Source: a virus
Direction: 5' to 3' (one strand)
IMG/VR virus record: IMGVR_UViG_3300025574_000002
Span: 1 to 49,888 of that record
DNA: 49,888 nt
The notes beneath the pieces are model-generated. The model did no database searches. It had not been told where the DNA came from and worked only from the letters and a program-made list of their open reading frames with translations. Below, one piece after another: positions 14,510 to 33,838 of the stretch. The position numbers were made by a program, and so were the translations under genes. Every line of letters begins with the position of its first letter. The stretch's first letter is position 1.

Positions 14510-14528
14510 ATGTTTAGAGTTCTACTAT
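14510..14528 (-). promoter_or_regulatory. Conserved upstream element TAGTAGAACTCTAAA
   Basis: On the minus strand TAGTAGAACTCTAAA begins so that TAGAAC starts 28 bases before the GG of the -24 box. The same element at the same spacing precedes the promoter at 24277-24294. Identical sequence and spacing suggest a protein-binding site used at these two promoters. It overlaps the end of the activator gene, including its TAG stop. Confidence 0.5.
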
Positions 14529-15403
14529 CTTATAGTTCCCCACACCGTATGGCGAACTACATAATTCTGAATAGACCTTACGTTCAACGAGAGGTCTAGT
14601 ATCCCATTCCTAAGTGAGTCACCATGCTCCTTGAGAAAGTCTTCATGGCCGGGCAATGACTTACAGATTGGTATCACATCACACATCCTACTCACTAACG
14701 GTTTGATATGCATCTCTAGCATACTAATCCTAGCATACAAGTCCTCTCTAAATGTTCTATCCTTTACCATCTGTTTCAGGTTCTTGTTAGTGGCAAACAC
14801 AAACTTACAATTCACCGGAACCTCAGACATTGCACCGACAGGGCATACGCACTTCTCCTGTATCACCCTCAACAACTTCGATTGCATCATCAAAGGTAGC
14901 TCACCTACTTCATCAAGGAACATAACTCCATCTGCTGCTTCTGCCATGAAACCTTTCCTGTCTGTATATGCTCCTGTGAAAGCTCCTTTGACATAGCCAA
15001 AGAGGATAGACTCTATGAGTGTCTCTGGTATGCCAGCACAGTTGATAGCTTTGAACATACCTTTCCTATCAGCTATCATAGACTTAGCTATTATCTCTTT
15101 TCCTGTTCCTGTTGGCCCTATGATTAGAACTTCATTAGGAGCCTTAGATGCTTTGGATGCTTTGACCTTCAACTCTAAAGTCTCAGGGTCTTCCGTTATG
15201 AACTTAGCCAGATGTAGTTCACCTGCTGATAGTGTGTCTACTAAAGCCCACTTATCATCTATCCACTTGACAGCATATGGTAGATTGAACTCTACTATCT
15301 TATCTCTTACTGTATCTTCCATCCCCTCATTAGACAGATAAAGTTCTAACGTCTTACGAGATGGTATCTTTCTCTCAGGTTGTTGTGCTTGTGGTAGTGC
15401 CAT
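14525..15403 (-). CDS. Phage sigma-54 activator: AAA+ enhancer-binding-protein core without receiver or DNA-binding domain
   Basis: 292 residues. It carries every hallmark of the sigma-54 interaction AAA+ domain: Walker A GPTGTGKE (96-103), the sigma-54-contacting loop GAFTGA (140-145), Walker B MFLDEVGELP (161-170), sensor I FATNKNL (203-209), arginine-finger segment FREDLYAR (218-225), and a sensor II NVRSIQN (274-280). ATP hydrolysis by a hexamer of such a protein would open promoters bound by sigma-54 RNA polymerase. The N-terminal 85 residues show no receiver, GAF or PAS pattern, and the protein stops right after the lid, with no Fis-type helix-turn-helix, as in the few known activators that work from solution. 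Five -24/-12 promoters in the same genome, one starting just after this gene, make a phage-run sigma-54 programme the natural reading. Confidence 0.92.
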   Translation of the reverse strand: MALPQAQQPERKIPSRKTLELYLSNEGMEDTVRDKIVEFNLPYAVKWIDDKWALVDTLSAGELHLAKFITEDPETLELKVKASKASKAPNEVLIIGPTGTGKEIIAKSMIADRKGMFKAINCAGIPETLIESILFGYVKGAFTGAYTDRKGFMAEAADGVMFLDEVGELPLMMQSKLLRVIQEKCVCPVGAMSEVPVNCKFVFATNKNLKQMVKDRTFREDLYARISMLEMHIKPLVSRMCDVIPICKSLPGHEDFLKEHGDSLRNGILDLSLNVRSIQNYVVRHTVWGTIR

Positions 15404-15406
15404 AAA

Positions 15407-15742
15407 TTAAGTAGCTGGATAGTAAAACATTCCCTTGCTAAATCCATAGTAGTCTGATATGAATACAAAGTCTCCTTGAAAAATACCGTTCTTAGATGTA
15501 TAGGCTCTTTCACTCTCCAAGTCAATTACTATATCGTGGCCAAAGAATACATCCCATCCACACCAATAACGATTATCAACCAGAAAAGCTGGCATAAGCC
15601 ACCACTCTTTTTTAGTTATATCAACTGGTAATGATTCTCTCTCCTCTTTAGTTACAATTCTAGCTGTAAAGCCTTCGCATGATTTTTGGATTAAGATGTT
15701 TAATGCTAAACGGGATTGTTGTGGTGTTGGTTGTTTTATCAT
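15407..15742 (-). CDS. 111-residue hypothetical protein
   Basis: The ATG at 15742 (MIKQPTPQQSRLALNILIQKS) follows the stop of the upstream gene by 5 bases. The product has a helical opening and a Trp/aromatic-rich middle (KKEWWLMPAFLVDNRYWCGWDVFFG). No family recognised. It is immediately upstream of the activator gene, so the two are probably co-transcribed. Confidence 0.6.
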   Translation of the reverse strand: MIKQPTPQQSRLALNILIQKSCEGFTARIVTKEERESLPVDITKKEWWLMPAFLVDNRYWCGWDVFFGHDIVIDLESERAYTSKNGIFQGDFVFISDYYGFSKGMFYYPAT

Positions 15743-15747
15743 ATTGT

Positions 15748-16065
15748 TTATTTCTTTTTGAATTGTCTTTCCCTCCAAGCTGCCCAAAGACTAATAGCCT
15801 TAGGCCCTGTATATGTTAAGCTGTGATTCGCTTGCACTTGGAATCTAACCTCTGGTGTCCACTGGTCTAGCAGGTGTTGCTCCTTTGCTACAACAATCAT
15901 AGACTTCCCATCGGACATAAAGGCTATCTCATCAGGGTCAAACTCCATAGCCATTACAGTTGCCCGGCGGGGTATTGTGTTGACTGTCTGACCATATTGA
16001 TTGCGGTATAAGAAGCGAGCATATTGACACTTGTTCAAGTCAACGACTATACGATTATCTTTCAT
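15748..16065 (-). CDS. 105-residue hypothetical protein
   Basis: Mixed alpha/beta protein (MKDNRIVVDLNKCQYARFLYRNQYG...), with a basic C-terminal end AAWRERQFKKK. The ATG overlaps the stop of the zinc-finger gene (ATGA, 16062-16065). No recognised domain. Confidence 0.6.
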   Translation of the reverse strand: MKDNRIVVDLNKCQYARFLYRNQYGQTVNTIPRRATVMAMEFDPDEIAFMSDGKSMIVVAKEQHLLDQWTPEVRFQVQANHSLTYTGPKAISLWAAWRERQFKKK

Positions 16066-16412
16066 ACCTCTTTGTTCCCTAAGAATCGGTCTAGGTCTGA
16101 GCCAACCTTTGTGTCAGACAAAGTTTCATCTCTAGCTTCATCTGCCTTCTTTTCCAACCATTCTTCATAAGCTTCTCTCTTTTCCCCCTCTCCATCGATA
16201 TAACCATCTCCATTGCATCGAGGACAATCAGCTTCCTCACAATGTTCTTTGCACTCAGCACAAAGGTCTCCCATAAGAATAGGAGCACCACAACAATTAG
16301 ACTCACCCACCTTACCAGTCTCCTCACAATCAGGACACTCAACTCTATTATCTTCTGGTGGCATCATAGCATCATACTGTGCTTGTGCTCTATCAAATCC
16401 ATTATCTTTCAT
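16062..16412 (-). CDS. 116-residue DnaJ-like zinc-finger protein
   Basis: Cys-rich core: CPDC near 26-29, NCCGAPI near 39-45, CAEC near 51-54, CPRCNGDGYID near 63-73, which includes the CxxCxGxG signature of DnaJ-type zinc fingers, followed by an acidic helical tail. Small proteins like this are common in phage replication regions. The start overlaps the ligase stop as ATGA (16409-16412). Function unknown; protein or RNA contacts are plausible. Confidence 0.65.
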   Translation of the reverse strand: MKDNGFDRAQAQYDAMMPPEDNRVECPDCEETGKVGESNCCGAPILMGDLCAECKEHCEEADCPRCNGDGYIDGEGEKREAYEEWLEKKADEARDETLSDTKVGSDLDRFLGNKEV

Positions 16413-17353
16413 AAGTCTATCTCATTTCTTTTGCCCACCATGATAGGTGAGCGTGGTTTGATTTTAGTTCCGTGTTGTTTTGATTTATACACTATCATCT
16501 GCCCCAACCATTTGTCTTGGTTATCCCAAATCTCTGCTCTCTTTTGGTCTGTTAATACCCCTCCACCGACATTGAACTCTAGGCCAAAAGTATTCCTAAC
16601 TCTGAATGAACCTAATACACACTTCCCTATCATCCCCTCTTTGAATGTGGAGCGATTCATCCTGCCTAAAGCATTCCTCTTCACCGAATTGGTGTTCAAC
16701 ATCTGCTCGTTGAACCCTATAACAATAGCCTCAGCCCTAACATACCTAGCTAATTTAATAAGGTATTGTTCGTTAAGAGTGGAGCGGTTATCAATAGTCC
16801 CCTTCTGAACATAGAGGCTGTCAGGAAATCTCCAACAAATACCTTCTCCCTTCTCAGCTTCAACCTCTTTGAAGTATAAGAATAGTTCCTCTGGTGTATG
16901 ACAAACTACTGGTTCGGCGGGAACAACATCTGCCAAATCTTTACATTCAAACTTAGCTATCTCTAACCTCTCTGTATATGGTATCCCTTTACCTTCATCC
17001 CACAAGTCAATTATGTGAAACTTAATCTCAGTAGAGCGTGGGTCTAACCTGTCCATCACTATGGACTGTATCTCGTTGTAGGTTAGCTCTCTATTCCCCA
17101 ACTCTGTATCCAGACCATAAGGTTTATTCTTCGAGCGTGATTGTAGTTCTAGATTAGGTATCTTCTTGATAGTTCTACTAGCTAAGTCTCCCAAGACTAT
17201 ACCTCTGACACCATCCTCTTTGAATGTAGCTACCCTGCTCCCCGGCTTTTTACTCCATAACCCTTGTATAGCCTTGAGGATAGTTAAGTCATCATGCTTG
17301 TCATGTGGCTCTAGCAGCGTGGCAGCAAGCATTGGTTTGTCGAAGGGTATCAT
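16409..17353 (-). CDS. ATP-dependent DNA ligase
   Basis: 314 residues with nucleotidyltransferase motif I KEDGVR (Lys45 as the adenylated residue), a motif III-like segment IKFHIIDLW near 110-118, motif IV EGICWRF near 169-175, motif V YLIKLARY near 197, and an OB-fold C-terminal part (MIGKCVLGSFRVRN near 240). It seals nicks in phage DNA during replication and repair. The length fits small phage ligases. The start overlaps the end of the 78-residue gene. Confidence 0.85.
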   Translation of the reverse strand: MIPFDKPMLAATLLEPHDKHDDLTILKAIQGLWSKKPGSRVATFKEDGVRGIVLGDLASRTIKKIPNLELQSRSKNKPYGLDTELGNRELTYNEIQSIVMDRLDPRSTEIKFHIIDLWDEGKGIPYTERLEIAKFECKDLADVVPAEPVVCHTPEELFLYFKEVEAEKGEGICWRFPDSLYVQKGTIDNRSTLNEQYLIKLARYVRAEAIVIGFNEQMLNTNSVKRNALGRMNRSTFKEGMIGKCVLGSFRVRNTFGLEFNVGGGVLTDQKRAEIWDNQDKWLGQMIVYKSKQHGTKIKPRSPIMVGKRNEIDL

Positions 17354-17565
17354 GGTCTTTTAGGTTTGAATCTTAAGAAAGCAATACCATTTATACATAC
17401 CCATACCCTACCATCGCTACTTATCTGAACACCAAAGTCTAATGTAGGGCAGGCTTTATCAAATTTATGTTGGGCTATTTGGTCAAGAATTATTTCAAGA
17501 TTCTCCACTGATAACCTACCTTGTTGATGTGTTTCTTCGTATTCTTTCATAATCTTAATCATCAT
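17350..17565 (-). CDS. Small hypothetical protein between helicase and ligase
   Basis: About 71 residues starting at the MMIKIMKEYEETHQQGRL segment; the ATG lies inside the end of the helicase gene, so translation is probably coupled. Helical N-terminal half and a beta-type C-terminal half (VQISSDGRVWVCINGIAFLRF). No family recognised. Confidence 0.6.
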   Translation of the reverse strand: MMIKIMKEYEETHQQGRLSVENLEIILDQIAQHKFDKACPTLDFGVQISSDGRVWVCINGIAFLRFKPKRP

Positions 17566-20094: not shown

Positions 20095-20540
20095 ATCAAC
20101 TCCTCCTCTTTCGTTACAAGTTTCTTTATCCCTATCACCCTAATCTTAGCCATATGCTTCCCCTTCACCCAACTATACCCTATGGCATTTGCTTGGTCTT
20201 GAGTGTAGTCAAATAACTCCATCAACTGAGCAGCAACTATCTTTATGTTTGCCTTCTCAATCCATCCTGCCACTCTCGCTTTCTCCGAAGTGTTCTTTTG
20301 ACGCTTCCAATTAGTATTGGACTCTAGCCACTCAGCATAAGACCATAGTTTAGGATACTTTAGAGGCTCTCCAGAGTGTTCTTCAAACTGGACTTTGAAG
20401 AGCAAATCATCTTTGATAGCATGGTGGATTATTAGAGCAACCTCGTAGCTTGGTAGCTGCCTTGTGCCTTTGAACTCAGACCCTAAGGCAAGCTCAATTA
20501 TAGCATCGAGCGGGAGGGTTATCTGTTTAGAAGATTTCAT
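20091..20540 (-). CDS. 149-residue hypothetical protein
   Basis: The start at 20540 (MKSSKQITLPLDAIIELALG) is preferred over an upstream frame opening because the region upstream (20564-20668) is a long inverted repeat. Mostly helical, with W-S-Y-A-E-W and W-K-R-Q-K-N segments. No known family. It precedes the KOW-like and helicase genes in one operon. Confidence 0.6.
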   Translation of the reverse strand: MKSSKQITLPLDAIIELALGSEFKGTRQLPSYEVALIIHHAIKDDLLFKVQFEEHSGEPLKYPKLWSYAEWLESNTNWKRQKNTSEKARVAGWIEKANIKIVAAQLMELFDYTQDQANAIGYSWVKGKHMAKIRVIGIKKLVTKEEELI

Positions 20541-20563
20541 TTGTTGTGATTTGTCAGTGAACT

Positions 20564-20695
20564 TACTAAAGAGAGTCCTCAAGTTGATACGTCTACCAAC
20601 CACATTATTAGGTCTAGTGCCTAGCCTAGCATAAATGCCAGTTAGTGTTATGAGGACTCTCTTTAGTAGATACTGCTATTAGAAGCGGCAGTATC
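20564..20695 (-). repeat. Long inverted repeat: 18-bp perfect arms 69 bases apart, plus adjacent 8-bp hairpin
   Basis: TACTAAAGAGAGTCCTCA at 20564-20581 is exactly complementary to 20651-20668. Next to it GATACTGC/GCAGTATC (20669-20676 and 20688-20695) forms a second hairpin. The structure lies between two leftward genes and has no run of Ts after it, so it is more likely an RNA processing or stability element than an intrinsic terminator. Confidence 0.7.
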
Positions 20696-20711
20696 AGACA
20701 CTTGATACTAC

Positions 20712-21293
20712 TTAGGCCGTAGCAGGAGCTTTATTAGCCTGCCGCTTTGCTGCAATGGCAGCATACTTGGCTTCAATAGCCTTGCGCTGTTTCTTCAGCG
20801 GACGAATCTGGACAATGATTTCATTAATCTTACCAGTCAGTTCGTTGTATTGGTCTTGCTTGTCAGCCTTGACTTCACCCTTGTCATCATAGACATCAGC
20901 TTCTTCAATTGTCTCGGTGAGTGCATCAGCTTGGTCTTGCAACTCAAGAATCTGGTCAGCCAATTCTTTCTTGGTAGCACCACCAGTATCCAACGTTTCA
21001 AATGCTTTGAGAACATTATCCCAAATCAGATGACCATGCTCGTCTTTGTTGTTCGGGTCAGTAAAGGCTTCAATAGCCACTGCACGCCAGAAGCGTTCAA
21101 TAACTTTAGATGCAATATCTTCACCCAATGCTTTAATACTTTCATGCAAGTTTAGCGGATTGGTTACAACAGTCCAAAAGGATTGTCCTTTATATGGTGA
21201 TGTTTTACCAAACTGAGTTTCGCTCAGTTTGGTGACTACACCATTACGGAGGAACTGTGGAGGATTTTCTTTACTATGTGTATGGTTACTCAT
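20712..21293 (-). CDS. 193-residue coiled-coil protein under its own sigma-54-type promoter
   Basis: An N-terminal 100 residues of mixed fold (FLRNGVVTKLSETQFGK..., SFWTVVTNPLNLHESIKALGED) are followed by a long heptad-type helix (ELADQILELQDQADALTETIEE) and a second one that is Lys/Ala-rich. No family recognised. It has a separate leader, a -24/-12 promoter at 21435-21452 and a long inverted repeat after its stop, which suggests that it is made in quantity. An abundant DNA-binding or scaffold-like early protein is one possibility. Confidence 0.65.
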   Translation of the reverse strand: MSNHTHSKENPPQFLRNGVVTKLSETQFGKTSPYKGQSFWTVVTNPLNLHESIKALGEDIASKVIERFWRAVAIEAFTDPNNKDEHGHLIWDNVLKAFETLDTGGATKKELADQILELQDQADALTETIEEADVYDDKGEVKADKQDQYNELTGKINEIIVQIRPLKKQRKAIEAKYAAIAAKRQANKAPATA

Positions 21294-21434
21294 TTGTCTT
21301 GTTTATTTTGTTTGTTCAGTGGCATCCTTGTCATTTACTTCCCAGTGCCTTTCGGGAAGTTTAGTTAGCTAACTTGTCGCGACTAACTGAAATTGATTTG
21401 TATATTATGTGTTGTGACATAAGAGATATACTAT

Positions 21435-21452
21435 AAGCATTTTTCGTGCCAA
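21435..21452 (-). promoter_or_regulatory. Sigma-54-type promoter, leftward
   Basis: On the minus strand CTTGGCACGAAAAATGCTTA has GG at 21450-21449 and GC at 21438-21437 with ten bases between; it is the closest of the set to the TGGCACG-N4-TTGCW consensus in its -24 half. Predicted start about 21426, leaving a leader of about 130 bases with a hairpin (ACTTCCC/GGGAAGT near 21336-21361) before the coiled-coil gene. Confidence 0.8.
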
Positions 21453-21496
21453 GCAGGGTAGAGAAGTAGTTGATACAACTGTCAAACTATAGACTT

Positions 21497-21850
21497 TTAA
21501 GTATCAGTTACCCATTTTCCAGTAGCGCGTAGTAGGGCTTCGCAGAGTTGGGAGGGAGAGGCTTCAAGTATTGCTAGACTTGCGCCTTGTTCAGACCAGT
21601 CTGAGTCTATACCAAGCATTTCAGCTAGTTTGTTGATTACATCTATTTTAGTTTCATGTCCCTGCTTCTCAATCACCGGCACAATGGCATCACGGGAGGA
21701 GAGATAGGGTGGCACTCCATGATATTCTTCGTCGTCTATATAGTGTTCACCATATACTTCTGACCATGCTATGAGTGATTGCCTGTCTTGCTCTGTTTGT
21801 TTCCACCCATCCAACTCCGCGATTGCTTTGATTTGGTCTTGGTCTTTCAT
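21497..21850 (-). CDS. 117-residue small phage protein (ABA-sandwich-like)
   Basis: The ATG at 21850 is chosen because it lies 1 base after the upstream stop and directly precedes the conserved-looking opening IKAIAELDGWK. The GVPPYLSSRDAIVPVIEKQ segment and the C-terminal CEALLRATGKW resemble the phage ABA sandwich family of small proteins, whose role is unknown. Negatively charged overall. Confidence 0.6.
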   Translation of the reverse strand: MKDQDQIKAIAELDGWKQTEQDRQSLIAWSEVYGEHYIDDEEYHGVPPYLSSRDAIVPVIEKQGHETKIDVINKLAEMLGIDSDWSEQGASLAILEASPSQLCEALLRATGKWVTDT

Positions 21851-21851
21851 T

Positions 21852-22184
21852 TTAGTTATCTCCTCTTTCATCATGTTCTATACTACCCATATCAGCGTCA
21901 GATTCTTCTTGTTCCTTTCTTACTTGGTTGATTGCGGAGAGGAGTGATGAAACTGATTCGTGAATAGATATTATAACTCCATCTTCCTGAATACCTAGCT
22001 GGAATCGCATTGGTTGTTCGGAATCAGCATAAAGTGAGTAATCATTCTTCTCCAACCAATCCAACGCATCGGCTTTTTGGATTAGGAGGGCAAGATTGTC
22101 CATTACTTCTTTTCGCTTACCAACGAGAAGTATATCAGTGGCAATGTGATTCGCCTTTTGTTCTGCTTGGTTTTGTGGGGTCAT
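21852..22184 (-). CDS. 110-residue hypothetical protein
   Basis: Helical N-terminal part (MTPQNQAEQKANHIATDILL) and a short beta segment (PMRFQLGIQEDGVIISIHESV), then an acidic end. The ATG overlaps the stop of the preceding 36-residue membrane protein (ATGA). No known family. Confidence 0.55.
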   Translation of the reverse strand: MTPQNQAEQKANHIATDILLVGKRKEVMDNLALLIQKADALDWLEKNDYSLYADSEQPMRFQLGIQEDGVIISIHESVSSLLSAINQVRKEQEESDADMGSIEHDERGDN

Positions 22185-22291
22185 ATTATTTTTTTGAATA
22201 GGTTAATTAATTGCAAATAAAGTAATCCAAATAAACACCAGAAGATTCCGTGTAACGCACCAGCTAATTCATTAAATTGGTATTCACTCAT
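22181..22291 (-). CDS. 36-residue single-span membrane protein
   Basis: The product has one hydrophobic stretch, LHGIFWCLFGLLYLQLINLF, followed by KK, so it is a small inner-membrane protein with a basic end. It is linked to the next gene by an ATGA overlap (22181-22184). The start context (AACCGAACGAAGTTGCC before the ATG) is nearly the same as that of the neighbouring 38-residue gene, which supports both being translated. Function unknown. Confidence 0.55.
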   Translation of the reverse strand: MSEYQFNELAGALHGIFWCLFGLLYLQLINLFKKII

Positions 22292-22306
22292 GGCAACTTC
22301 GTTCGG

Positions 22307-22423
22307 TTATTGGCTTAAATGAACACATCCACCTATTCCAATGCAGATTGCAAAAATAATGATTGCAATTCCTATTGAGTCTCCAAGAATTGTATTTCCA
22401 AAATGTTCTTTCGGTTCTTTCAT
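22307..22423 (-). CDS. 38-residue single-span membrane protein
   Basis: Begins MKEPKEHFGNTILGDS and continues into the hydrophobic span IGIAIIIFAICIGIGGC. The ATG overlaps the stop of the 69-residue gene (ATGA, 22420-22423). It forms a pair with the adjacent 36-residue membrane protein. Function unknown; holin-like or host-membrane modulation are guesses. Confidence 0.55.
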   Translation of the reverse strand: MKEPKEHFGNTILGDSIGIAIIIFAICIGIGGCVHLSQ

Positions 22424-22629
22424 GGCAATGTGGTTCGGTTATTGGCATCGGTGAGGATGGCTTCTGCTAAATTTGATAGCGACAATCTTATAGACGATTT
22501 AGCTTCTCTCCTAACTAGCTCCGCCGCAAACCTCTCACCAGCTTTGAAGGCGTCGAGTTGGATTTGTTTGATTTCTTCTGCTGGCAGTCTGTTATCGTGC
22601 CAGTTTGCCCATTCTTCCGCTGTTTTCAT
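22420..22629 (-). CDS. 69-residue small helical protein
   Basis: ATG 22629 overlaps the upstream stop (ATGA), giving MKTAEEWANWHDNRLPAEE and then IKQIQLDAFKAGERFAAEL. This EEW...IQxDA pattern is typical of many short, uncharacterised phage and bacterial reading frames. GC-richer than the replication genes downstream. Confidence 0.6.
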   Translation of the reverse strand: MKTAEEWANWHDNRLPAEEIKQIQLDAFKAGERFAAELVRREAKSSIRLSLSNLAEAILTDANNRTTLP

Positions 22630-22871
22630 TGTTTGTTTCCTTTCTTTTGCATGACGTGTGGGAGGGTGGAGTGTTCTGCCCATGCTTTATCTAATCCACA
22701 ATCACAATTATTTAGTGGAGAATATCCCGTAGCGCAACTGGCTCTATGTCCATTTGGATACATTGCCAATTCATCACACACCTTGCGGAGTTGGGTAAGT
22801 TCGGCTTCATAGTCATCGGTTTTCGCTTCGGATTTATTTTTATTTGACATCGTGGTTCGGGGTTGGCTCAT
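22626..22871 (-). CDS. 81-residue hypothetical protein with Cys cluster
   Basis: A charged opening, a helix LTQLRKVCDELAM and then C-x5-GYSPLNNCDCGLDKAW with three closely spaced Cys, possibly a metal site. Sits in a GC-richer stretch of small genes and couples to the next gene by ATGA. No family recognised. Confidence 0.55.
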   Translation of the reverse strand: MSQPRTTMSNKNKSEAKTDDYEAELTQLRKVCDELAMYPNGHRASCATGYSPLNNCDCGLDKAWAEHSTLPHVMQKKGNKQ

Positions 22872-22886
22872 GCGGAGCGTTGGGCA

Positions 22887-23126
22887 TCATTGCCCAGCCC
22901 TTTGTTTTCGCAGACGGATTATAGTGTCCACCGATTCGTTTATATCGTTGGTGAATTGAGGACTTACCATGTAGGCATCGTCCTCAACGAATTGACCATT
23001 GGCTCGTTGTTCTGCGCTGGCTTTTGACCAAGTTGGAGTTCGAGACGCGCAGCCCGTGATGCCCAACAATTCCATGCAGGCGACAGCTAGTATCGCTGGC
23101 AGTCCGATTGATTTTAGCATTTTCAT
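22887..23126 (-). CDS. 79-residue lipoprotein
   Basis: Basic start, hydrophobic helix IGLPAILAVACMELL and lipobox GITGC (Cys near 26) followed by Ala-Ser, a standard signal-peptidase II site. The mature part is short and charged, ending in RLRKQRAG. It is probably anchored in a host membrane. It may take part in lysis (outer spanin-like) or superinfection exclusion; sequence does not decide. Confidence 0.65.
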   Translation of the reverse strand: MKMLKSIGLPAILAVACMELLGITGCASRTPTWSKASAEQRANGQFVEDDAYMVSPQFTNDINESVDTIIRLRKQRAGQ

Positions 23127-23524
23127 ATTCCGTTTTTCTTGGTTGGTTCAGGCGTTGACCCGCTGCGCCTGATGTCGGCGTTGTGCTGCTTGGCGTCGGC
23201 CACTTGTTTGCAGGCACGGTAGCCGGCCATCCGTGCTTTCGTTGCCGTCCGAATCATCGAGCGACAAAATTCCACGATTTGCATTTCGCAGTCGTGACAC
23301 ACATTCAGCCCTTCCGAGCCGATGACATACAGGTTGATGTTTCGGACTTCACCTGCGGGAGCACCACAGGCGCGGCACAACAAGCCCAATGGAGCCAACC
23401 CGCGTTGGACGGTTTCTTTTTCACTAATAAGTTTTTTTGGTGTTCGTGAGTCAGTTGGCAAATCATTCATCAAGCCGTCTTCAATATCTTGTTCGTTGAA
23501 TGTTGGTTCAGTTGGTTCGTTCAT
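23123..23524 (-). CDS. 133-residue zinc-finger protein
   Basis: CRACGAPAGE near 50-53 and CHDCEM near 76-79 form a likely two-part zinc site, then a basic helix (CRSMIRTATKARMAGYRACKQ). Both ends overlap neighbours by ATGA. A regulatory or nucleic-acid-binding role is possible, but no family was recognised. Composition is GC-richer than the replication genes. Confidence 0.6.
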   Translation of the reverse strand: MNEPTEPTFNEQDIEDGLMNDLPTDSRTPKKLISEKETVQRGLAPLGLLCRACGAPAGEVRNINLYVIGSEGLNVCHDCEMQIVEFCRSMIRTATKARMAGYRACKQVADAKQHNADIRRSGSTPEPTKKNGI

Positions 23525-23829
23525 AATCCAGACTCCTTCATTGCGTTTGCGCGGGTGGTGTAGGTGGCTTGTGACCTATGACGGCTCCAATGTCCGACAG
23601 GAGCATTTTGCCACAATTTGTTTAGTTCAAAGTCAAAGCGTTCCCATTGCTCATCCGTCATCTTCTCCTCAACCCAAAGAGCGATTTGTTGCCATTCGGT
23701 TTCGAGGACTTGACTCTTAACTAATCCATGTCTATGTAGCCAAAAGAACTGTTCGCTTGTGACTCCATATTTAATCCTCTCCGGCAACAATCCCGCGAGA
23801 TAGAGTTTGGCTTCGTGTGGGGTTAGCAT
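23521..23829 (-). CDS. 102-residue hypothetical protein
   Basis: Begins MLTPHEAKLYLAGLLPERIK and is rich in Trp (W near 30, 46, 52, 62, 73, 80). No known family. First gene of a tight string of small ATGA-linked genes running down to 21497, preceded by a 150-base spacer with an inverted repeat. Confidence 0.6.
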   Translation of the reverse strand: MLTPHEAKLYLAGLLPERIKYGVTSEQFFWLHRHGLVKSQVLETEWQQIALWVEEKMTDEQWERFDFELNKLWQNAPVGHWSRHRSQATYTTRANAMKESGL

Positions 23830-23837
23830 AAATTGAA

Positions 23838-23919
23838 TTGGTAGTTGCGAATATACTTCTAGCTGCTGTTAACAACTAATGCTGCAATACATTAACAGAA
23901 TATACTGCAACACTACCAA
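23838..23919 (-). repeat. Imperfect inverted repeat between the lysozyme-like gene and the next small gene
   Basis: TTGGTAG and CTACCAA bound the structure, TTGC/GCAA lie just inside, and an inner CTGTTAA/TTAACAG stem closes it. There is no T run in the direction of transcription, so this looks like an RNA processing or stability element. Confidence 0.5.
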
Positions 23920-23982
23920 ATTGGTGGTCTCGCCAAGGTTTGATTGGCTTAACCTAAATTGTGTTGTTCTTTGTGATGTTTG

Positions 23983-24255
23983 TCATAAATGTAAAATCCT
24001 AACCACATTTACTTTCCATCTTTGATTTCCAACCAAATCCACTTTAGGAGGACAGTAAATGTCTGCAAGTAGATAGATAAAATGTCGGTCGATTTCCACC
24101 ACCTTGTAAGTCCTTTCAGCATGGATAATCGTATTGATGCAAGCTTGTCTTGGTGTTGTAGTGACATAGTGTTGTTTGATGCCATAAGGCCACTTGGTAT
24201 CTTTACCACCTTCGGCTGTATATATGGCGTCAGCTAGAGCGTCAACGGTTATCAT
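23983..24255 (-). CDS. Putative lysozyme-like (muralytic) protein
   Basis: 90 residues. The pattern ADAIYTAEGG near 8-17, WPYGIK near 22-27, CINTIIHAERTYK near 39-51 and the end LADIYCPPK...NQRWKVNVVRIL matches a small lysozyme-fold family that I recall in phages and bacteria, in which the Glu of AEGG would be the catalytic residue. It lies only 12 bases after the predicted start of the sigma-54-type promoter at 24277-24294, as expected for a late lysis gene. No other endolysin was recognised in this genome. Confidence 0.5.
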   Translation of the reverse strand: MITVDALADAIYTAEGGKDTKWPYGIKQHYVTTTPRQACINTIIHAERTYKVVEIDRHFIYLLADIYCPPKVDLVGNQRWKVNVVRILHL

Positions 24256-24276
24256 AATTGTGATTTCCCTTTCTTA

Positions 24277-24294
24277 TAGCATTTCCCATGCCAA
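24277..24294 (-). promoter_or_regulatory. Sigma-54-type promoter, leftward, before the lysozyme-like gene
   Basis: On the minus strand CTTGGCATGGGAAATGCTAT has GG at 24292-24291 and GC at 24280-24279, ten bases apart. Predicted start about 24267, leaving about 12 bases before the ATG. It carries the TAGTAGAACTCTAAA element 28 bases upstream, as at 14481-14498. Confidence 0.82.
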
Positions 24295-24308
24295 GTGATG
24301 ATTCTATA

Positions 24309-24335
24309 TTTAGAGTTCTACTATTAAATAGAACT
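24309..24335 (-). promoter_or_regulatory. Upstream element forming an interrupted palindrome AGTTCTA / TAGAACT
   Basis: AGTTCTA (24314-24320) and TAGAACT (24329-24335) are inverted copies separated by 8 bases. The left copy is part of the TAGTAGAACTCTAAA element shared with the promoter at 14481-14498. This is the geometry of a dimer-binding operator. It is not known which protein would bind; the phage activator itself shows no DNA-binding domain. Confidence 0.5.
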
Positions 24336-24430
24336 GTTGTGTCATAAAACCTACTGTCAACTGCTGTTACAAGTAGCAGAGGAAAGATACTACATGGCGA
24401 GGTAACTGACAGTAGGTTTTAGGACACAAC
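24336..24430. repeat. 24-bp inverted repeat (23 of 24 paired) with nested stem
   Basis: 24336-24359 and 24407-24430 are reverse complements apart from one base, with a 47-base loop that holds a smaller CTGCT/AGCAG stem. It lies in a 637-base gene-free stretch (24256-24892). It is not followed by a T run on either side. Possible roles are an RNA structure or a protein-binding cruciform. Confidence 0.7.
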
Positions 24431-24659
24431 ACAAGTTAGTTAACTGTCTCTTAACATCCAACTAGCGATAAACAAGATACTCAAACTGTCTAGCATATCT
24501 TGTAACATTTAGACTTGCCGGGTGGCATAATCTACTCGTCACCCCTTACTATTTATCGGTTTCGTGCGCTAGTTCTTTCAATAGTCATGGCAGTAAGTTT
24601 CAACTGCACGTTCTTCCATCCAGTTATCTTGAAAAGCAATGAGTTTTGTGATTATATTA

Positions 24660-24677
24660 TAGCATTATTTATGCCTA
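24660..24677 (-). promoter_or_regulatory. Weak promoter candidate: sigma-54-like or extended -10
   Basis: On the minus strand TAGGCATAAATAATGCTATAAT has the GG-N10-GC spacing (GG 24675-24674, GC 24663-24662) but AGG instead of TGG and no -24 CG. It also reads as an extended -10 (TGCTATAAT) for a housekeeping sigma. It lies just after the terminator at 24774-24843 and could start the next leftward transcript. Confidence 0.35.
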
Positions 24678-24773
24678 GCAGAATCTACAATCATTATCAG
24701 ACCCTTTATCTTTTAAGATTATCAGGGCAGCGTTCAAGTTTGCGTGGAAACTATGTTGCATTGTCGGCAACAC

Positions 24774-24843
24774 AAAAAGAGCCTTTAAGACATAATAAGG
24801 CGTGAAGTGAATCACGTTTGATTAAATGGTCTTGGCTCTTTTT
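24774..24843. terminator. Bidirectional intrinsic terminator
   Basis: AAAAAGAGCC (24774-24783) pairs with GGCTCTTTTT (24834-24843), with an inner CGTGA/TCACG stem. Either strand ends in a GC-containing stem followed by five Ts, so it can stop transcription both ways. It closes the transcript of the first early gene (24893-25483). Confidence 0.75.
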
Positions 24844-24892
24844 ACATTAGGTAAGATTATGGTTTGAATAGACTAGTTAGTTGTTTGATTGA

Positions 24893-25483
24893 TTAGGTAG
24901 CTTTCAACAGAGTTTGCTGCCGTTGAATTTCTTTTTCCAAGTTAACCTTGGCAAGTTGCAAGTCTTGCAACTTGGCTTCTGCTTTTGTGATTTTGGACAA
25001 GTCAGGGGGATTAGTAACTTGGACTTTCAGCAACGCCTTTTCAGCATCGGCAATGATAAATACGATGTTGCAATGTTGCTGTTGCAATGTTAACTCATCT
25101 TCACCGATTAGGGTATGCCGCAACTTCACCGGGTTAGTCTCTGATTTCTTATCATAGACATAAGTCGCTGTTGAACTGGTTACGTTTCCAGCATGGATTT
25201 TTCCGAATTGCTTGGCAAGAAACAAGTTGACTTGCTCGACAATTTGTTTCCACACTGACAATTCAACGTGCTTGTCGGGATATATTTGCGGATAACGAGA
25301 AACGTATTCGTTTTTCAGTGTATCACACAAACTTTGTCGGTTCAGTTTCAGCTTACTTTTCACTGCTTGTTTTGCAGATTGCTGACTTGCGAGTTTTACC
25401 AAGACTTCACCAAAGGGAAACTCTTCTAATTGGACTGGTGACTCTGCGAGCTTGCTTGTGGATTGTGCTAGTGCTTGACTCAT
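24893..25483 (-). CDS. 196-residue lead early protein with coiled-coil end
   Basis: Opens with a Ser/Ala/Gln-rich segment, then a mixed helical region (FGEVLVKLASQQSAKQAVKSKL, LSVWKQIVEQVNLFLAKQF), and closes with a heptad-type helix (AEAKLQDLQLAKVNLEKEI). No known family. It is the first gene left of the divergent region, follows a long non-coding leader and ends at a strong terminator, so it is probably an independent, early-expressed unit. A host-takeover role is a guess from position. Confidence 0.6.
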   Translation of the reverse strand: MSQALAQSTSKLAESPVQLEEFPFGEVLVKLASQQSAKQAVKSKLKLNRQSLCDTLKNEYVSRYPQIYPDKHVELSVWKQIVEQVNLFLAKQFGKIHAGNVTSSTATYVYDKKSETNPVKLRHTLIGEDELTLQQQHCNIVFIIADAEKALLKVQVTNPPDLSKITKAEAKLQDLQLAKVNLEKEIQRQQTLLKAT

Positions 25484-26180
25484 AACTAATTAGTTGTTTC
25501 AGTATCCACAATTTCACTTGTCCAGTGTTGGCTAACTGGTTTAATGCTTGTGAACACTAGGCAACTAACTAGCCTAGTCAAACCATAACTTACGGGTGAA
25601 CGGATGACTACTGGCTTACAGTCTATGGGTATTAGCCAAGACTAAAGGTCTCCAGTCTCACTTTGTTCTAGCTTAATGTCGGGTGCCCGGTTCCGTATGG
25701 ACTAGGGTATTAATCGACAAAGGTTTTCAGCGGTGTTAGGACAATATCAGCTTACCTAGTCATACCCGTATCAATTCACGTCCCTATTGGCAATAGGCTC
25801 TTTAATCGTGCTTTACAAGGTGATACTAGCTACTTACTTCCCTAACCTTACTAGCTTACTAACCTGCTAACGAGTTGACTTAACAGCTCGCAACTATGAC
25901 CGCCAACATACCCTTACGCGGTTTAATCCCTCGCCAATCTCTGCAGTCATATAGAAAGCAGTTTAACTAGCGAGTTAAGTATTCCATACCCCAAGAAATA
26001 AAGCAAATTTTTATTCCATTGATTATTAGGGCTTTATGACTGGACTGAAAGATTTATCACAACAGAGTAGCTTTCCCTCACTTCGTTCGCCCTTTACATA
26101 ATAAAGGTTATTAAGTAAGTCTAGCGGGAATGTCTAGTCAAATGGTCGTTATATCAGCTAACGATATAAGTGTCTGTTCT
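25484..26180 (-). other. About 700-base gene-free leader region left of the origin candidate
   Basis: No convincing reading frame on either strand. It contains small hairpins (CCTATT/AATAGG near 25784-25798; related GAGTTGACTTAACAGCTCG and GCGAGTTAAG segments near 25871-25980) and is less AT-rich than the DNA to its right. It would be the 5' leader of the first leftward transcript if that starts in the AT-rich tract, making it a candidate structured RNA. Confidence 0.35.
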
Positions 26181-26333
26181 ATCACTCCTTTTATGAAATA
26201 TGAAAAATATATATATATATTATATTATATAGTATTATACTGTATTCTACTATGTTACACCTTGTTGATAGAACTTGATATAACTTTGTAGAAGGTTACG
26301 CTTTGACCACTTTTTTGGGGGACGTGATAGAAC
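26176..26333. promoter_or_regulatory. Three GTGATAGAAC-type motifs flanking an AT-rich tract
   Basis: GTTCTATCACT (26176-26186, inverted), GATAGAACTT (26267-26276) and GTGATAGAACT (26324-26334) share the core TAGAAC, also seen in the upstream elements at 14510-14528 and 24309-24335. Between them (about 26195-26245) lies a nearly pure A/T stretch of alternating TA. This looks like a protein-bound regulatory or unwinding region with divergent promoters. Confidence 0.4.
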
Positions 26334-26464
26334 TATGACTTATATCAGGAGTTGGTATAACGAGCAAACAGCCAGAAACATTGGCTTCTACAAGCTACCC
26401 GAAGAACGACAAGAATAGTCGGATATAGATAGTAGGTTAGCTTATACTCTGCATTAGTATTACA

Positions 26465-26592
26465 CTAGCTAATCCACCACATAACATCCGCTAATACTAA
26501 TACACCGGATAAGCATAGCTAATCAGTATCAGCCTAGCTAATGATGATTATAAGCATCAGCCTAGCTAATACTCTGTATCATCCTAGCTAAT
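26465..26592. repeat. CTAGCTAAT iteron-like repeats
   Basis: CTAGCTAAT occurs exactly at 26465, 26534, 26562 and 26584, with ATAGCTAAT at 26515 and several GCTAATACTA-like partial copies. Two copies share the longer ATCAGCCTAGCTAAT. Steps between copies are 50, 19, 28 and 22 bases. Next to an AT-rich tract and between divergent gene blocks, this is the layout of an iteron-type replication origin or a multi-site operator. Confidence 0.5.
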
Positions 26593-26662
26593 GCTAATAC
26601 TAATCATCATCTTGTCTAATCATCATCTTGGCTACTCCTTACTAGTAGCTAGCCTACTGGCC

Positions 26663-26714
26663 TAGGGAGAAACCCGAAGTTGGATGGCGAAGTGCCACTA
26701 TACATCTCTCCCTA
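26663..26714. repeat. Inverted repeat TAGGGAGA / TCTCCCTA upstream of the late promoter
   Basis: Perfect 8-bp arms 36 bases apart enclose a TGGC/GCCA hairpin. It lies about 70 bases before the late sigma-54-type promoter. No T run follows. It may be the end of a structure tied to the origin region. Confidence 0.5.
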
Positions 26715-26784
26715 CACAATAAATTTTAGAAACCATTTCACAATAGAACACCAACTGAGAAGGGATAGTAAGGTAGCTATAGAG

Positions 26785-26802
26785 CTGGCATGGAAAATGC
26801 TA
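26785..26802 (+). promoter_or_regulatory. Sigma-54-type promoter of the rightward late operon
   Basis: CTGGCATGGAAAATGCTA has GG at 26787-26788 and GC at 26799-26800 with ten bases between; TGGCATGGAAAATGCTAAT is identical to the promoter at 14481-14498 on the other strand. Predicted start about 26812, only about 4 bases before the first ATG (10 before the second). It would drive terminase, portal and the rest of the late genes. Confidence 0.85.
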
Positions 26803-26815
26803 ATATAGTAAGTAT

Positions 26816-27094
26816 ATGGCTATGATTATCATACGACAGTCCTTTCAGGCAGAGATGCTAGAGGACTTTGAGAAAGAGGCTGGGGAGTTGAAGAAGATGT
26901 TAGCTGGGAGAGAGGTAGTAGTAGGGGGGAAAGAGTATGCAGAGAGGAGATTATGGGTTGTGGGGGAGAGTGTAAAAGAGTTGAAGAAACAGATGGAAGA
27001 CCCTGGTAGACATTTCTCTCAGTATGAAGGGGGGTATAGTCCAGAAGAGGCAAAGAGATTTGAACAATTTAAGAATGGAGAAACTGCAATATGA
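26816..27094 (+). CDS. 92-residue first late-operon protein
   Basis: Starts MAMIIIRQSF; an inner ATG at 26822 is an alternative. The rest is strongly charged and helical (EMLEDFEKEAGELKKMLAGRE, SVKELKKQMEDPG). No family recognised. The predicted transcript start lies 4-10 bases upstream, so the mRNA would be nearly leaderless. Confidence 0.6.
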   Translation: MAMIIIRQSFQAEMLEDFEKEAGELKKMLAGREVVVGGKEYAERRLWVVGESVKELKKQMEDPGRHFSQYEGGYSPEEAKRFEQFKNGETAI

Positions 27095-27167
27095 TATGCA
27101 CATTGAATAAAGACTGTGGTTTTTGGGTTAGTTTGGGGACTGAGAAGATAGTTATCTGGACACCCTA

Positions 27168-27587
27168 ATGGGAACTGACAGTCAAATTTTAGCTGCTTAC
27201 AGACAGGGGTTAACTCCCGAACAGATAGCAGAAGACTTAGACTTTCCTGTGTATGCAGTAAAGGCTAAGTTGATGAATTTATCTTCTGACTATAGGAAAG
27301 CTTGCGGTCAGGAACCAGAGGAAGATAGTGAGTTAAACCTCTCCCGCGAAGAGCAGATTACCATAAAGAGGAAGCTCATGGATACCTTCTTATCTAGCGA
27401 AGATGAGCACGTTATAGTCAAGTTGGGGACATACTTGCGAGATGATGGTAAGGGGAGAAAGGATGTTGTTAAGCAGATGGGGAACATTGGAAATCTGAAT
27501 ATCCTACAACTAGTTAATGGGTCTATCTCCCAAGCAAGAGAAAACTCCCGCTCTTTGAAAGATAGTCTAAAGATGGTTACTGCATGA
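27168..27587 (+). CDS. Putative small terminase subunit
   Basis: 139 residues. An N-terminal helix-turn-helix-like segment (ILAAYRQGLTPEQIAEDLDF, then VYAVKAKL) fits the DNA-recognition part of a small terminase, followed by a helical oligomerisation-type region. It sits directly before, and overlaps by 4 bases, the large terminase gene. It would recognise phage DNA and hand it to the large subunit. Identification rests on position plus the HTH. Confidence 0.6.
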   Translation: MGTDSQILAAYRQGLTPEQIAEDLDFPVYAVKAKLMNLSSDYRKACGQEPEEDSELNLSREEQITIKRKLMDTFLSSEDEHVIVKLGTYLRDDGKGRKDVVKQMGNIGNLNILQLVNGSISQARENSRSLKDSLKMVTA

Positions 27588-30132: not shown

Positions 30133-30133
30133 T

Positions 30134-30436: not shown

Positions 30437-30458
30437 TGATTCTTTGATAAATTGACTT

Positions 30459-32342
30459 ATGACTTCCCTCTCCAACAATAATGAATACATCAACACAACT
30501 GACTATGATAAGTTAGAGCTTAAACTGAAAGAGATTAAGCAAGTGTTAGATGATGCCATGGGGCTTACTATCACTTCTCGAAAACTTCGGTATGCTGAAG
30601 TGGATGTTGAGTTGGAGAGGGAGGCTGAAAGAATACAGCCGGATGAGATGTATATTCCAGTTCACACAATAGATACTAACATTCGCCGGGAGCAATCATC
30701 ATATATTCAGTATATCACCCAATCTCCTAGGGCTGTTATATTAAAAGGTGCAGATGACTCAACAATCGATTTAGCACTATTGGAGGATGATTTGACTAAG
30801 AAGTTGAGGTATGATGGCTGGCAGAAGCCTATGTTCGCCAATGTAGATAACTTTCAAGCTAATGGGTATGGAGTGATGGAGGTAGTGCAAGATAAATCTT
30901 GTGGTGGATGGGTAGCTCATGAGCAAGTTCAATCATCTGACTTTGGCTTTACGACAGATACTAGAGACTTACAAGCTTGTGAGATGTTGGGTAGGACATA
31001 TCACTATACTAAAACTAAGTTGTTGAGTATGTGTGGAGACCCTAAAAATCCGAAGGATAGAGATTGGGACAGAGAGCAAGTGGAGAAGGTAGTCTCTAAA
31101 GACTCTCAAGCTAGTGGTGCTGAACCTATGGAACCAGCAGAGGACAAAGATAAGTCTTTATTCCGCGTTCAGAAGATAATGTTTCGTGTCAATGGGGTAG
31201 TTCAAGTAGGATGGGCTTGTATAGGTATTGCAGATGATTGGCTCAGGATGCCTAAACCTTTGTATATTGGTCGAACGAAGCAGGCTCCTGCTCAACCTGC
31301 TCAACCTGCTCAACCTGTAATGCAAGGAATGCCTCCCCAACAGATGCAACCCCCAGCACCTCAGTGGGTAGAAGCTTATGAGACCATGTATCCATATGTT
31401 TTATTCCAGTATCTAATCAGCGAGAATGACACTATCTCTAATCTAAAGGGCAGGATTTATCTAGACCAAGATGTGCAAGAGGGATTAACAAGTCTGTTGT
31501 CTAGCACTATGACACAAGCTCGCCGGGCAAGTGGTCTTTATGCTTCTCAAGATAGTGATGACCCTAATGATGATGTGCTGATGCAGAAGAATGTAGCCTT
31601 CAAACCTAACTGTCTTATCAACAAGAAAGTTACATTTGCTTCTCTTAAAGCGCCAGAGCCGGGTGTGTTTAGTGCAATACAGATGTTGCAAGCGGGTAAT
31701 CAGCAAGAGACTAGTCAGATTAACTTCGCAGAATCTAATAACCAGAAAGATAGTAGAAAGACTGCTACTGCTATCAAAGAGTCTAGGTCTCAGAGACAAG
31801 AACTAACTGGTGTTCAAGTTGTCCTATTCTCCTTAGCGCTCACTGAGCTGTATCAGAAGATGGTTGGGATTATTAAGTCTAGAGTATTAGCTGGCTTGAT
31901 TAAAGTGAATCCACAAGTATTACCACTCTATCAAACTAAGATAATCATAAAACCATCTGGTGATGTGGATGTGATAGAGAAGCAGCAGTTGATTGGTATG
32001 ATGACAGAAGCATGGCCTTTCATTCAAAATACTGCTGCTGCTACTATCTTTATGTGTGATTTACTGGAGAAGATGTTCCCCAATAATGCAGCAAGATATG
32101 TTCAAGCTATCATGCAAGACCAGCAGCAGAAACAAAGTCAGCAAGCTCAACAGCAACAACAGGTGATGCAGTTTGCTCAACAACTAGGCCAGCAAGTTGT
32201 AGAGTTGAGTAAGCACAGTGACTGGTTCTCTGATATCGGTAAGCTACATGCTTTCCCTGTGATAGAGCAAAAAGCTCAACAAATTAAACAAATAGCAGAG
32301 CAGATGCAAGTAGGGAAGAAACAGCAAGGACAATCAGCGTGA
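30459..32342 (+). CDS. Portal protein
   Basis: 627 residues. Position after the terminase and before scaffold and capsid, the length, the N-terminal helical region, the MFANVDNFQANGYGVMEVV segment near 127-146 and a Gln-rich C-terminal helix (QQQKQSQQAQQQQQ near 555-570) fit podovirus portal proteins. It forms the dodecameric channel for DNA entry and exit. A QPAQPAQPV repeat near 274-285 is coded by 9-base tandem units. Confidence 0.8.
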   Translation: MTSLSNNNEYINTTDYDKLELKLKEIKQVLDDAMGLTITSRKLRYAEVDVELEREAERIQPDEMYIPVHTIDTNIRREQSSYIQYITQSPRAVILKGADDSTIDLALLEDDLTKKLRYDGWQKPMFANVDNFQANGYGVMEVVQDKSCGGWVAHEQVQSSDFGFTTDTRDLQACEMLGRTYHYTKTKLLSMCGDPKNPKDRDWDREQVEKVVSKDSQASGAEPMEPAEDKDKSLFRVQKIMFRVNGVVQVGWACIGIADDWLRMPKPLYIGRTKQAPAQPAQPAQPVMQGMPPQQMQPPAPQWVEAYETMYPYVLFQYLISENDTISNLKGRIYLDQDVQEGLTSLLSSTMTQARRASGLYASQDSDDPNDDVLMQKNVAFKPNCLINKKVTFASLKAPEPGVFSAIQMLQAGNQQETSQINFAESNNQKDSRKTATAIKESRSQRQELTGVQVVLFSLALTELYQKMVGIIKSRVLAGLIKVNPQVLPLYQTKIIIKPSGDVDVIEKQQLIGMMTEAWPFIQNTAAATIFMCDLLEKMFPNNAARYVQAIMQDQQQKQSQQAQQQQQVMQFAQQLGQQVVELSKHSDWFSDIGKLHAFPVIEQKAQQIKQIAEQMQVGKKQQGQSA

Positions 32343-32352
32343 AACATATCAT

Positions 32353-32616
32353 ATGATGACTAAAGAATCAATCGCACTAGCCACTAAGCTTCACGATGAA
32401 TGGCTTAAACATCCCACTACGCAGGATGCTATCAAGATTTTGAAAGGACGGTATGACCACTACAAGACTAAATTGCAGACAGATATTCTGGTTGCCAGTA
32501 ACAAGGAGTCAGAAGATAAGTTACGTTCTGCAATGACAACTGCTGAGACACTTGGTCTACTTCTTTTTCAAACAGACAAATTTGTAGAAACACTTAACAA
32601 ACTAAACAAGGAATAA
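32353..32616 (+). CDS. 87-residue helical protein between portal and scaffold
   Basis: Starts MMTKESIALATKLHDEWLKH and is helical throughout. Small proteins at this place are common in podoviruses with unknown role. Ends 1 base before the scaffold gene. Confidence 0.6.
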   Translation: MMTKESIALATKLHDEWLKHPTTQDAIKILKGRYDHYKTKLQTDILVASNKESEDKLRSAMTTAETLGLLLFQTDKFVETLNKLNKE

Positions 32617-32617
32617 T

Positions 32618-33814
32618 ATGCCAGACCCCGCAGAAGTAAAAGTAGAACAACTCCCAACCATAACACAATCTACCCCGGCACCTCAGTCTACTCCAAAGGC
32701 TGCTGAGGAAATGACATTCAACTCGCTGGAGGATATAGATGTTGAGCAGTTGCCAGAACAGAGTAAAGAAGGGTCAACAAAGGTTGAAGCTCCAGTGAAG
32801 GTTGAACCCCCTGAAAAGAAGATTGAAGAGGTAAAACTAAAATCAGAATCAAAATCAGAGGGCGAGAAGAAAGGCGAGGGTAATACTGAGGAGTCTAAAC
32901 TTCCTTCATACCTAAAAGCTCCAAAGACAGAAGGGAAGGTAGAAGAGTCGGGTGAGGGGAAGGGGGTTATTAAACCTATTCTCCCTAAACCAGATACAAG
33001 AGATTTCACAGGCTTCTCAAAGGAAGAAGCTGATGCTGGTAGAAAGATGGCTAATGATGCTTTTGCTATCTATAAGAAAGCAATATCAGATAGGAATGAA
33101 TTGAGTAAGTTGAAAGATACTTCTTATCTCCAGCACCCTAATGCTTATACACTAGACCCTGAGTTTCGGAAAACACAAGTTCAATTATCCTTTGCTCAGA
33201 AAGAAGCGAATTACTGGGAGAATCAGCTATCAGAGATGGACTCTGGTAAGCCGCTAGTTCCTATTACTGGATTTGACAGTAAGACAGGTCATCCAATACT
33301 TGGTCAACCTATCCCTGCTACCAAGGCACTGGAGGAAAAGGTTAGAATGATGATTCATAATTGCTATCAAGCAGGACAGGACTTTCAGACAAAGTTGGCA
33401 GAGTATCCTGCTAGATATGCTAGTCAGATTAAAAATAGTGTAGCAGGTATTGAGGATTTCCGTAAACAACAATTTGGTTGGGTTAATGACTCCAAGATGC
33501 TAGACTACTCTATCAATATAGAAGGTCTTGGGGAAAGAACTCTCAAACAGATAGGGGAGGATGTTAACAAGATGATTCCACCTTGGATGCACTCTAGTCC
33601 TGCTGTCCCACTTATTCAAGACTTAGTAATCTCAGTCCGATTATTACAGGCTGAGTTGGCGGAGGCAAAGATAACAAAAGCTGTTGAGACATATAAGGAA
33701 AATGAGCAAGAATTGGTAGAGCCTTCTAGCAGAGAAAAGAGTTCTAGTCGAGGAAAGGGGCAGAAGGTTCATGGGGTAGATGAGTTTGTAACAGACCCAT
33801 CTCTAGGTATTTAG
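32618..33814 (+). CDS. Putative scaffolding protein
   Basis: 398 residues. The first 130 are very acidic and Lys/Glu/Pro-rich (disordered), followed by helical segments (DAGRKMANDAFAIYKKAISD, LSFAQKEANYWENQLSEM) and a basic tail (SSREKSSSRGKGQ). This charge layout and the position directly before the major capsid gene are typical of scaffolds that shape the prohead and are then released. Confidence 0.7.
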   Translation: MPDPAEVKVEQLPTITQSTPAPQSTPKAAEEMTFNSLEDIDVEQLPEQSKEGSTKVEAPVKVEPPEKKIEEVKLKSESKSEGEKKGEGNTEESKLPSYLKAPKTEGKVEESGEGKGVIKPILPKPDTRDFTGFSKEEADAGRKMANDAFAIYKKAISDRNELSKLKDTSYLQHPNAYTLDPEFRKTQVQLSFAQKEANYWENQLSEMDSGKPLVPITGFDSKTGHPILGQPIPATKALEEKVRMMIHNCYQAGQDFQTKLAEYPARYASQIKNSVAGIEDFRKQQFGWVNDSKMLDYSINIEGLGERTLKQIGEDVNKMIPPWMHSSPAVPLIQDLVISVRLLQAELAEAKITKAVETYKENEQELVEPSSREKSSSRGKGQKVHGVDEFVTDPSLGI

Positions 33815-33820
33815 CATACC

Positions 33821-33838
33821 TTGGCATGATAATTGCTT
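33821..33838 (+). promoter_or_regulatory. Sigma-54-type promoter before the major capsid gene
   Basis: CTTGGCATGATAATTGCTTA has GG at 33823-33824 and GC at 33835-33836 with ten bases between and the consensus TTGCT. Predicted start about 33848, leaving a leader of about 124 bases. It begins 7 bases after the scaffold stop, so the capsid gene gets its own promoter. Confidence 0.82.

Follow-up and report, generated by a model that had tools for sequence, protein, structure and literature searches.

Can a phage run its replication and structural genes through the sigma-54 polymerase of its host by bringing its own activator? The question is raised by IMG/VR virus record IMGVR_UViG_3300025574_000002 (49,888 nucleotides; hereafter the window, meaning the whole stretch of DNA analysed), in which one gene encodes an AAA+ protein of the sigma-54 activator type and sites resembling -24/-12 promoters recur between genes. 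Our analyses suggest that, very probably, an activator supplied by the phage and lacking a helix-turn-helix (HTH) domain opens host RNA polymerase-sigma-54 at the middle and late promoters of the phage. A phage activator with matching promoters for middle and late genes had been proposed from the letters of the window (the sequence-only reading), and this proposal is now strongly supported by the conservation of both parts in related phages.

A predicted minimal activator

The product of 14525-15403(-) has 292 residues, with an N-terminal extension of about 65 residues followed by a complete AAA+ domain containing GAFTGA, and it matched PF00158 (Sigma54_activat) with 185.6 bits (cut-off 20.2, E 8e-55). 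The motifs by which the sequence-only reading had recognized the protein are all readable, namely Walker A (GPTGTGKE), GAFTGA, Walker B (VMFLDE), the arginine-finger region (FREDLYAR) and sensor II (NVRS). The AlphaFold2 model was confident (predicted local distance difference test score, 96), and its top PDB matches were the AAA+ domains of the bacterial enhancer-binding proteins FlrC, NtrC4, FleQ and NtrC1; PspF was also reached by sequence profiles. The first 65 residues comprise two helices and a hairpin, are weakly conserved among relatives, and had nothing similar in a PDB search. As judged from its sequence, the protein, presumably an active ATPase, differs from a standard enhancer-binding protein in that the C-terminal HTH is missing.

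Related contigs were gathered from IMG/VR, about two dozen through terminase and capsid searches and more distant ones through an activator alignment; a scan of viral contigs with one activator sequence gave no match, whereas the alignment did. The collection comprised 36 phage genomes or fragments (1.78 Mb), 35 of which were counted as members, and capsid identity to the window ranged from 90% down to 27%. The record left out, G038, has an AAA+ match but neither capsid, terminase and polymerase genes nor the sites described below. Such sites were also absent from MT121960, a 41-kb phage record with an activator-like match, which was not counted. Activator matches in the phage collection were mostly bacterial DNA deposited as phage, for example, the Acinetobacter phage MD-2021a contigs annotated PrpR, ZraR and GlnG.

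All 33 full-length activators matched PF00158, with catalytic positions invariant or almost so, and no HTH or other DNA-binding family was found among their matches; the proteins are about 245-355 residues long and end soon after the sensor II motif. When contigs were recruited through the capsid search alone, PF00158 was present in 17 of 17 near-complete ones (6 and 11 in two sets), and the six recruited contigs without it were fragments of 14-34 kb. No phage sigma-54 was detected, the DNA-binding domain of this factor (PF04552) giving no match in the 18 phage records searched for it.

The -24/-12 sites and their conservation

The strict pattern TGGCAYG-N6-GCT (TGGCAYGNNNNNNGCT) occurs exactly five times in the window (Table 1), compared with a mean of 0.09 in shuffled sequences, and none of 100 shuffles reached five. 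The sequence-only reading had listed five TGGCAYG sites with ten bases from GG to GC, and both this spacing and its coordinates, the latter within 1-2 bases, proved right. It had also placed them in spacers before genes; all five do fall between open reading frames (ORFs), but site 14482(-) is separated from the next gene by about 554 nt in which no ORF reaches 70 amino acids. Beyond this non-coding stretch, site 14482(-) reads into the exonuclease, kinase, Sak4-like, DNA polymerase and primase genes; site 21436(-) precedes gene 20712-21293 and the helicase-ligase-activator block, and site 26786(+) is predicted to be the promoter with which the rightward block of packaging and structural genes opens. 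A weaker sixth candidate (TTGGCATATTTTATGCT, 45637-45652(+)), overlooked before, sits within ORF 45608-46021. Looser scoring was weakly significant in the window alone, since a generic consensus with two mismatches allowed gave 10 matches against 5.3 expected and 3 of 100 shuffles also reached 10. In our judgement, it is the comparison with relatives, rather than the window alone, that settles the case.

We kept the sequence elements of the strict pattern fixed and varied the spacer length alone over the 36 records. A spacer of N6 gave 129 matches, whereas spacers of N2, 3, 4, 5, 7, 8, 9, 10 and 11 gave 3, 6, 3, 2, 2, 6, 4, 9 and 7, respectively. Although ORFs of at least 100 amino acids span 82.5% of this DNA, 107 of the 129 N6 sites lie outside them; with the other spacings, 10 matches lie outside and 31 within. 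Positions left free by the pattern agree with the sigma-54 consensus, with T at -13 in 95% of sites and T before TGG in 64%. The spacer and the bases after GCT are A/T, information falls to near zero further out, and the sites have the GG-N10-GC arrangement in TGGCAY/TGCT context by which sigma-54 promoters are recognized.

The placement of the sites is conserved as well. All 35 phages have a site ahead of the capsid gene, in 34 of them within 260 nt; it is invariably in the sense orientation and usually 120-230 nt away from the start codon. By the same test, upstream sites were found for scaffold in 0/32, portal in 1/33, helicase in 0/32, polymerase in 0/32 and exonuclease in 0/33. Homologues of gene 20712 (5/5) and of the first rightward gene, 26816 (3/3), all have one, as do some homologues of genes 13063 (12/24), 46018 (6/23) and 23983 (2/8), and the 700 nt after the activator gene include a site in 27 of 33 phages. 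Both activator and sites are thus conserved across related phages, as the sequence-only reading had proposed to check. For the alternative of an AAA+ protein taken over from a host regulator without a phage role, or of bacterial DNA in the contig, with sites arising by chance, nothing speaks except the marginal result of looser scoring in the window alone and the bacterial records in the phage collection. We regard this explanation as already refuted: the window is a viral entry of IMG/VR, has the same 127 bp at both ends and encodes a phage terminase and polymerase, and the spacer control together with the capsid placement excludes chance sites.

Some copies of the site are quasi-palindromic, e.g., TTGGCATGGAAAATGCTAA at 14482(-), and TTGGCAT-N5-ATGCTAA is nearly an inverted repeat, so the repeated site might instead be the operator of an unrelated dimeric DNA-binding protein. 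This is very improbable, because the capsid set is strictly asymmetric, with GG always in the left half, GCT always in the right half and the sense orientation throughout; the base before TGC is more frequently T than the A that operator symmetry requires, and both in spacing and at the free positions the sites agree with sigma-54 promoters.

No shared upstream enhancer motif rose above random near the sites. A 15-bp upstream repeat was seen in the window alone. The lack of an enhancer connecting the phage AAA+ protein to the sites leaves room for promoters that are driven by host enhancer-binding proteins, as seems to be the case in phage YuA, with the phage protein acting elsewhere, e.g., in adjusting host sigma-54 genes. 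We consider this improbable, although less so than the operator explanation, since a shared enhancer for a host activator was not seen either and activator and sites are conserved together, both being present in all 17 near-complete capsid-recruited contigs.

Proposed mode of action

In the mode of action that we favour, the phage protein would be a minimal AAA+ ring ATPase that has kept the catalytic and sigma-54-contacting motifs and dispensed with the DNA-binding domain. It would be made together with the early and middle replication genes, while host RNA polymerase carrying host sigma-54 waits as an inactive closed complex at the phage -24/-12 promoters; the ring would then open these complexes, giving an early-to-late order of expression. 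The promoters would govern the replication genes in the leftward block and the packaging and structural genes in the rightward one, with one promoter devoted to the capsid gene. Because there is neither an HTH nor a shared upstream motif, the better guess is that the activator acts from solution, as has been described for other activators lacking a DNA-binding domain, or touches the holoenzyme directly, most likely without fixed enhancer sites. Since no -24/-12 site lies directly upstream of the activator's own gene (0 of 34 phages), its first expression would need another promoter, and because transcription from 21436(-) in the window would run into a block that has the activator as its last gene, positive feedback would be possible.

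A broader picture can be drawn, of a widespread group of uncultured phages whose replication and structural programme is run by a self-sufficient, enhancer-free minimal activator, which would license host sigma-54 polymerase globally, would probably turn on host sigma-54 genes too, and would be coupled to a conserved control element of two RNA hairpins in the leader of the capsid mRNA, itself driven by sigma-54. For this combination as a whole, we judge the chances to be evenly balanced.

Host

The proposed regulon predicts a host with sigma-54. One member contig, C112 (49,908 bases), was binned in G008, a Deltaproteobacteria metagenome-assembled genome (MAG) with rpoN. A capsid search of 395 genomes of the phylum of G008 gave a match in G008 itself alone; when the phage DNA of G008 was compared with 51 genomes of its family, matches were confined to the activator coding region (15.0-15.2 kb), and no clustered regularly interspaced short palindromic repeats (CRISPR) spacer or prophage evidence was obtained from these 51 genomes. 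Among named phages, the best terminase matches were Akkermansia phages (27-30% identity), which may be a hint to the host.

Several points weigh against activation of host sigma-54 polymerase by the phage protein. That the host carries sigma-54 is an assumption, and a second MAG that includes member contigs carries an archaeal label and gave no PF04552 match, although this MAG probably represents contamination. The N-terminal 65 residues of the activator, for which the PDB offered no match, could bind DNA. The support is comparative throughout, and related phages are dependent samples: E-values and shuffles ignore shared ancestry, yet the flanks of the sites differ between more distant genomes.

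Genome organization and RNA elements

The first 127 bp of the window recur in direct orientation at its end (bases 1-127 = 49762-49888), as would be expected if a complete genome had been closed into a circle during assembly. Gene calls were mechanical. Two gene blocks diverge from about 25.5-26.8 kb. The leftward block, extending to 4295, contains genes for helicase, ligase, activator, exonuclease, kinase, a Sak4-like protein, two DNA polymerase pieces and primase; the rightward block, running through the record end to 4038, contains terminase, portal, scaffold, capsid and tail genes. The large terminase was identified by database matches, and the portal, scaffold, capsid and tail genes were assigned from gene order. 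A profile search with the capsid protein gave no match, so its assignment is by synteny. The DNA polymerase is seemingly split into an exonuclease-side and a polymerase-side piece (5659-6831 and 7185-8780, both (-)), an arrangement also present in the relatives compared.

Table 1. Features of the window discussed in the text, with coordinates, strand and supporting evidence
Feature	Coordinates	Strand	Sequence	Predicted start	Evidence or remarks
Sigma-54 activator gene	14525..15403	-			PF00158; relatives with invariant catalytic residues; AlphaFold2 model and PDB matches
Predicted -24/-12 site	14482..14497	-	TGGCATGGAAAATGCT	about 14471	strict pattern
Predicted -24/-12 site	21436..21451	-	TGGCACGAAAAATGCT	about 21425	strict pattern
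Predicted -24/-12 site	24278..24293	-	TGGCATGGGAAATGCT	about 24267	strict pattern; before gene 23983-24255
Predicted -24/-12 site	26786..26801	+	TGGCATGGAAAATGCT	about 26812	strict pattern
Predicted -24/-12 site of capsid gene	33822..33837	+	TGGCATGATAATTGCT	about 33848	strict pattern
Weaker sixth candidate site	45637..45652	+	TGGCATATTTTATGCT		intragenic; before gene 46018-46953
Major capsid protein gene	33972..35297	+			order after terminase, portal and scaffold; strong conservation
Two tandem AGGGCA-hexaloop hairpins, capsid leader	33858..33906 (33858-33875, 33889-33906)	+			stems across leaders
abiF-RNA-like hairpin	14372..14411	-			29.2 bits (Rfam gathering 37); E 0.001-0.004

At 26786-26816 and 24255-24293, the first start codon follows the predicted start by only about 4-12 nt, and the corresponding site-to-ATG distance of 30-38 nt recurs among relatives, suggesting leaderless or very-short-leader mRNAs at the 26786(+) and 24278(-) promoters. 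Just upstream of the latter promoter, a long imperfect inverted repeat (TTGTGTCATAAAACCTACTGTCA / TGACAGTAGGTTTTAGGACACAA, 24338-24432) was noticed by eye; it could be an operator or enhancer of this promoter alone. Between the divergent blocks, 1.3 kb (25484-26785) is free of ORFs. This region contains an imperfect 21-bp repeat in four copies that end in CTAGCTAAT (26453-26592), as well as a strongly AT-rich run around 26190-26240, and may be an origin or early promoter region. A scan of 20500-27200 for sigma-70-type promoters gave fewer matches than shuffles and was uninformative.

The capsid leader, from the predicted start to the ATG, holds both AGGGCA hairpins of the window, and the leaders of 35 phages have one or two each. 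In these leaders, 41 of 41 AGGGCA sequences close stems of 4 bp or more, compared with 3 of 405 elsewhere in the genomes; stem positions 2-4 have varied pair types, and in 37 of the 41 hairpins GCUUCU, GCUACU, GCCUCU or a close variant is located just upstream. An Rfam search with the capsid leader gave no match, and the hairpins have apparently not been described before. They may regulate the capsid at a second level, that of translation, with the upstream GCY possibly pairing with the AGGGCA loop as a pseudoknot.

The ORF-free stretch of about 550 nt after site 14482(-) (13918-14471(-)) contains a hairpin that resembles abiF RNA and scores below the gathering threshold, and several close relatives have 250-690 nt of non-coding DNA at this place. 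Sigma-54-driven non-coding RNAs are possibly made here, perhaps as a counter-defence decoy. In the post-activator stretch of relatives we also observed tRNA-like genes (L073:779-852(-), L076:2676-2784(+) and L015:760-872(-)), two of the three with long insertions in the anticodon-arm region.

Comparison with known systems

The sequence-only reading knew of no well-described phage with such a late programme, a claim that was too strong. The Pseudomonas phages YuA and M6 (Yuavirus, Mesyanzhinovviridae) have sigma-54 promoters in the structural region, where the window has predicted ones, and the YuA record (AM749441) annotates three there. Reportedly, host rpoN dependence of the YuA promoters was shown by Ceyssens and colleagues in J Bacteriol in 2008. 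Unlike the sites in the window, however, the YuA promoters do not match strict TGGCAYG-N6-GCT on their own strand, and the phage-activator profile found nothing significant in YuA, which seems to depend on a host activator. When the window capsid was compared with 50,697 phage records, a collection that includes YuA, there was no match, and no structural genes homologous to those of YuA-type phages were found.

The phage protein aligns over the whole domain with PspF, FlrC, FleQ and NtrC1, sharing the AAA+ fold and GAFTGA loop; PspF and its kin, however, bind enhancers via an HTH, whereas in the phage protein the AAA+ domain comes last. In lacking the DNA-binding (D) domain, which is usual in enhancer-binding proteins but absent from those of group 5, it resembles FleT, FlgR and CtcC, of which FleT has been called, in review, the sole known activator without both R and D domains (PMC7175178; PMC7482065). 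It differs from these three in being phage-encoded and in having a short N-terminal extension in place of the receiver domain. Replacing or modifying a sigma factor is a known phage strategy, as with T4 gp55 and SPO1 gp28, phage-encoded sigma factors that steer the host RNA polymerase towards late promoters. Whereas those phages contribute the sigma factor itself, the phage studied here would contribute an ATP-driven opener, apparently working with host sigma-54. No sigma-54 activator that is encoded by a phage and controls phage genes came up in a literature search of partial coverage.

If the proposed regulon is correct, it would represent a new strategy for takeover of host polymerase, in which the phage provides the ATP-powered opener and promoter recognition is left to the host, and the protein would be a natural minimal activator for studying enhancer-free sigma-54 opening. 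The activator and the capsid promoter together form a searchable signature of a divergent phage group that is barely present in the phage records searched. Activator and promoters are each of a known kind; what is new here, compared with the systems above, is that the activator is encoded by the phage, that its architecture is minimal, and that the capsid promoter is conserved throughout a divergent phage group.

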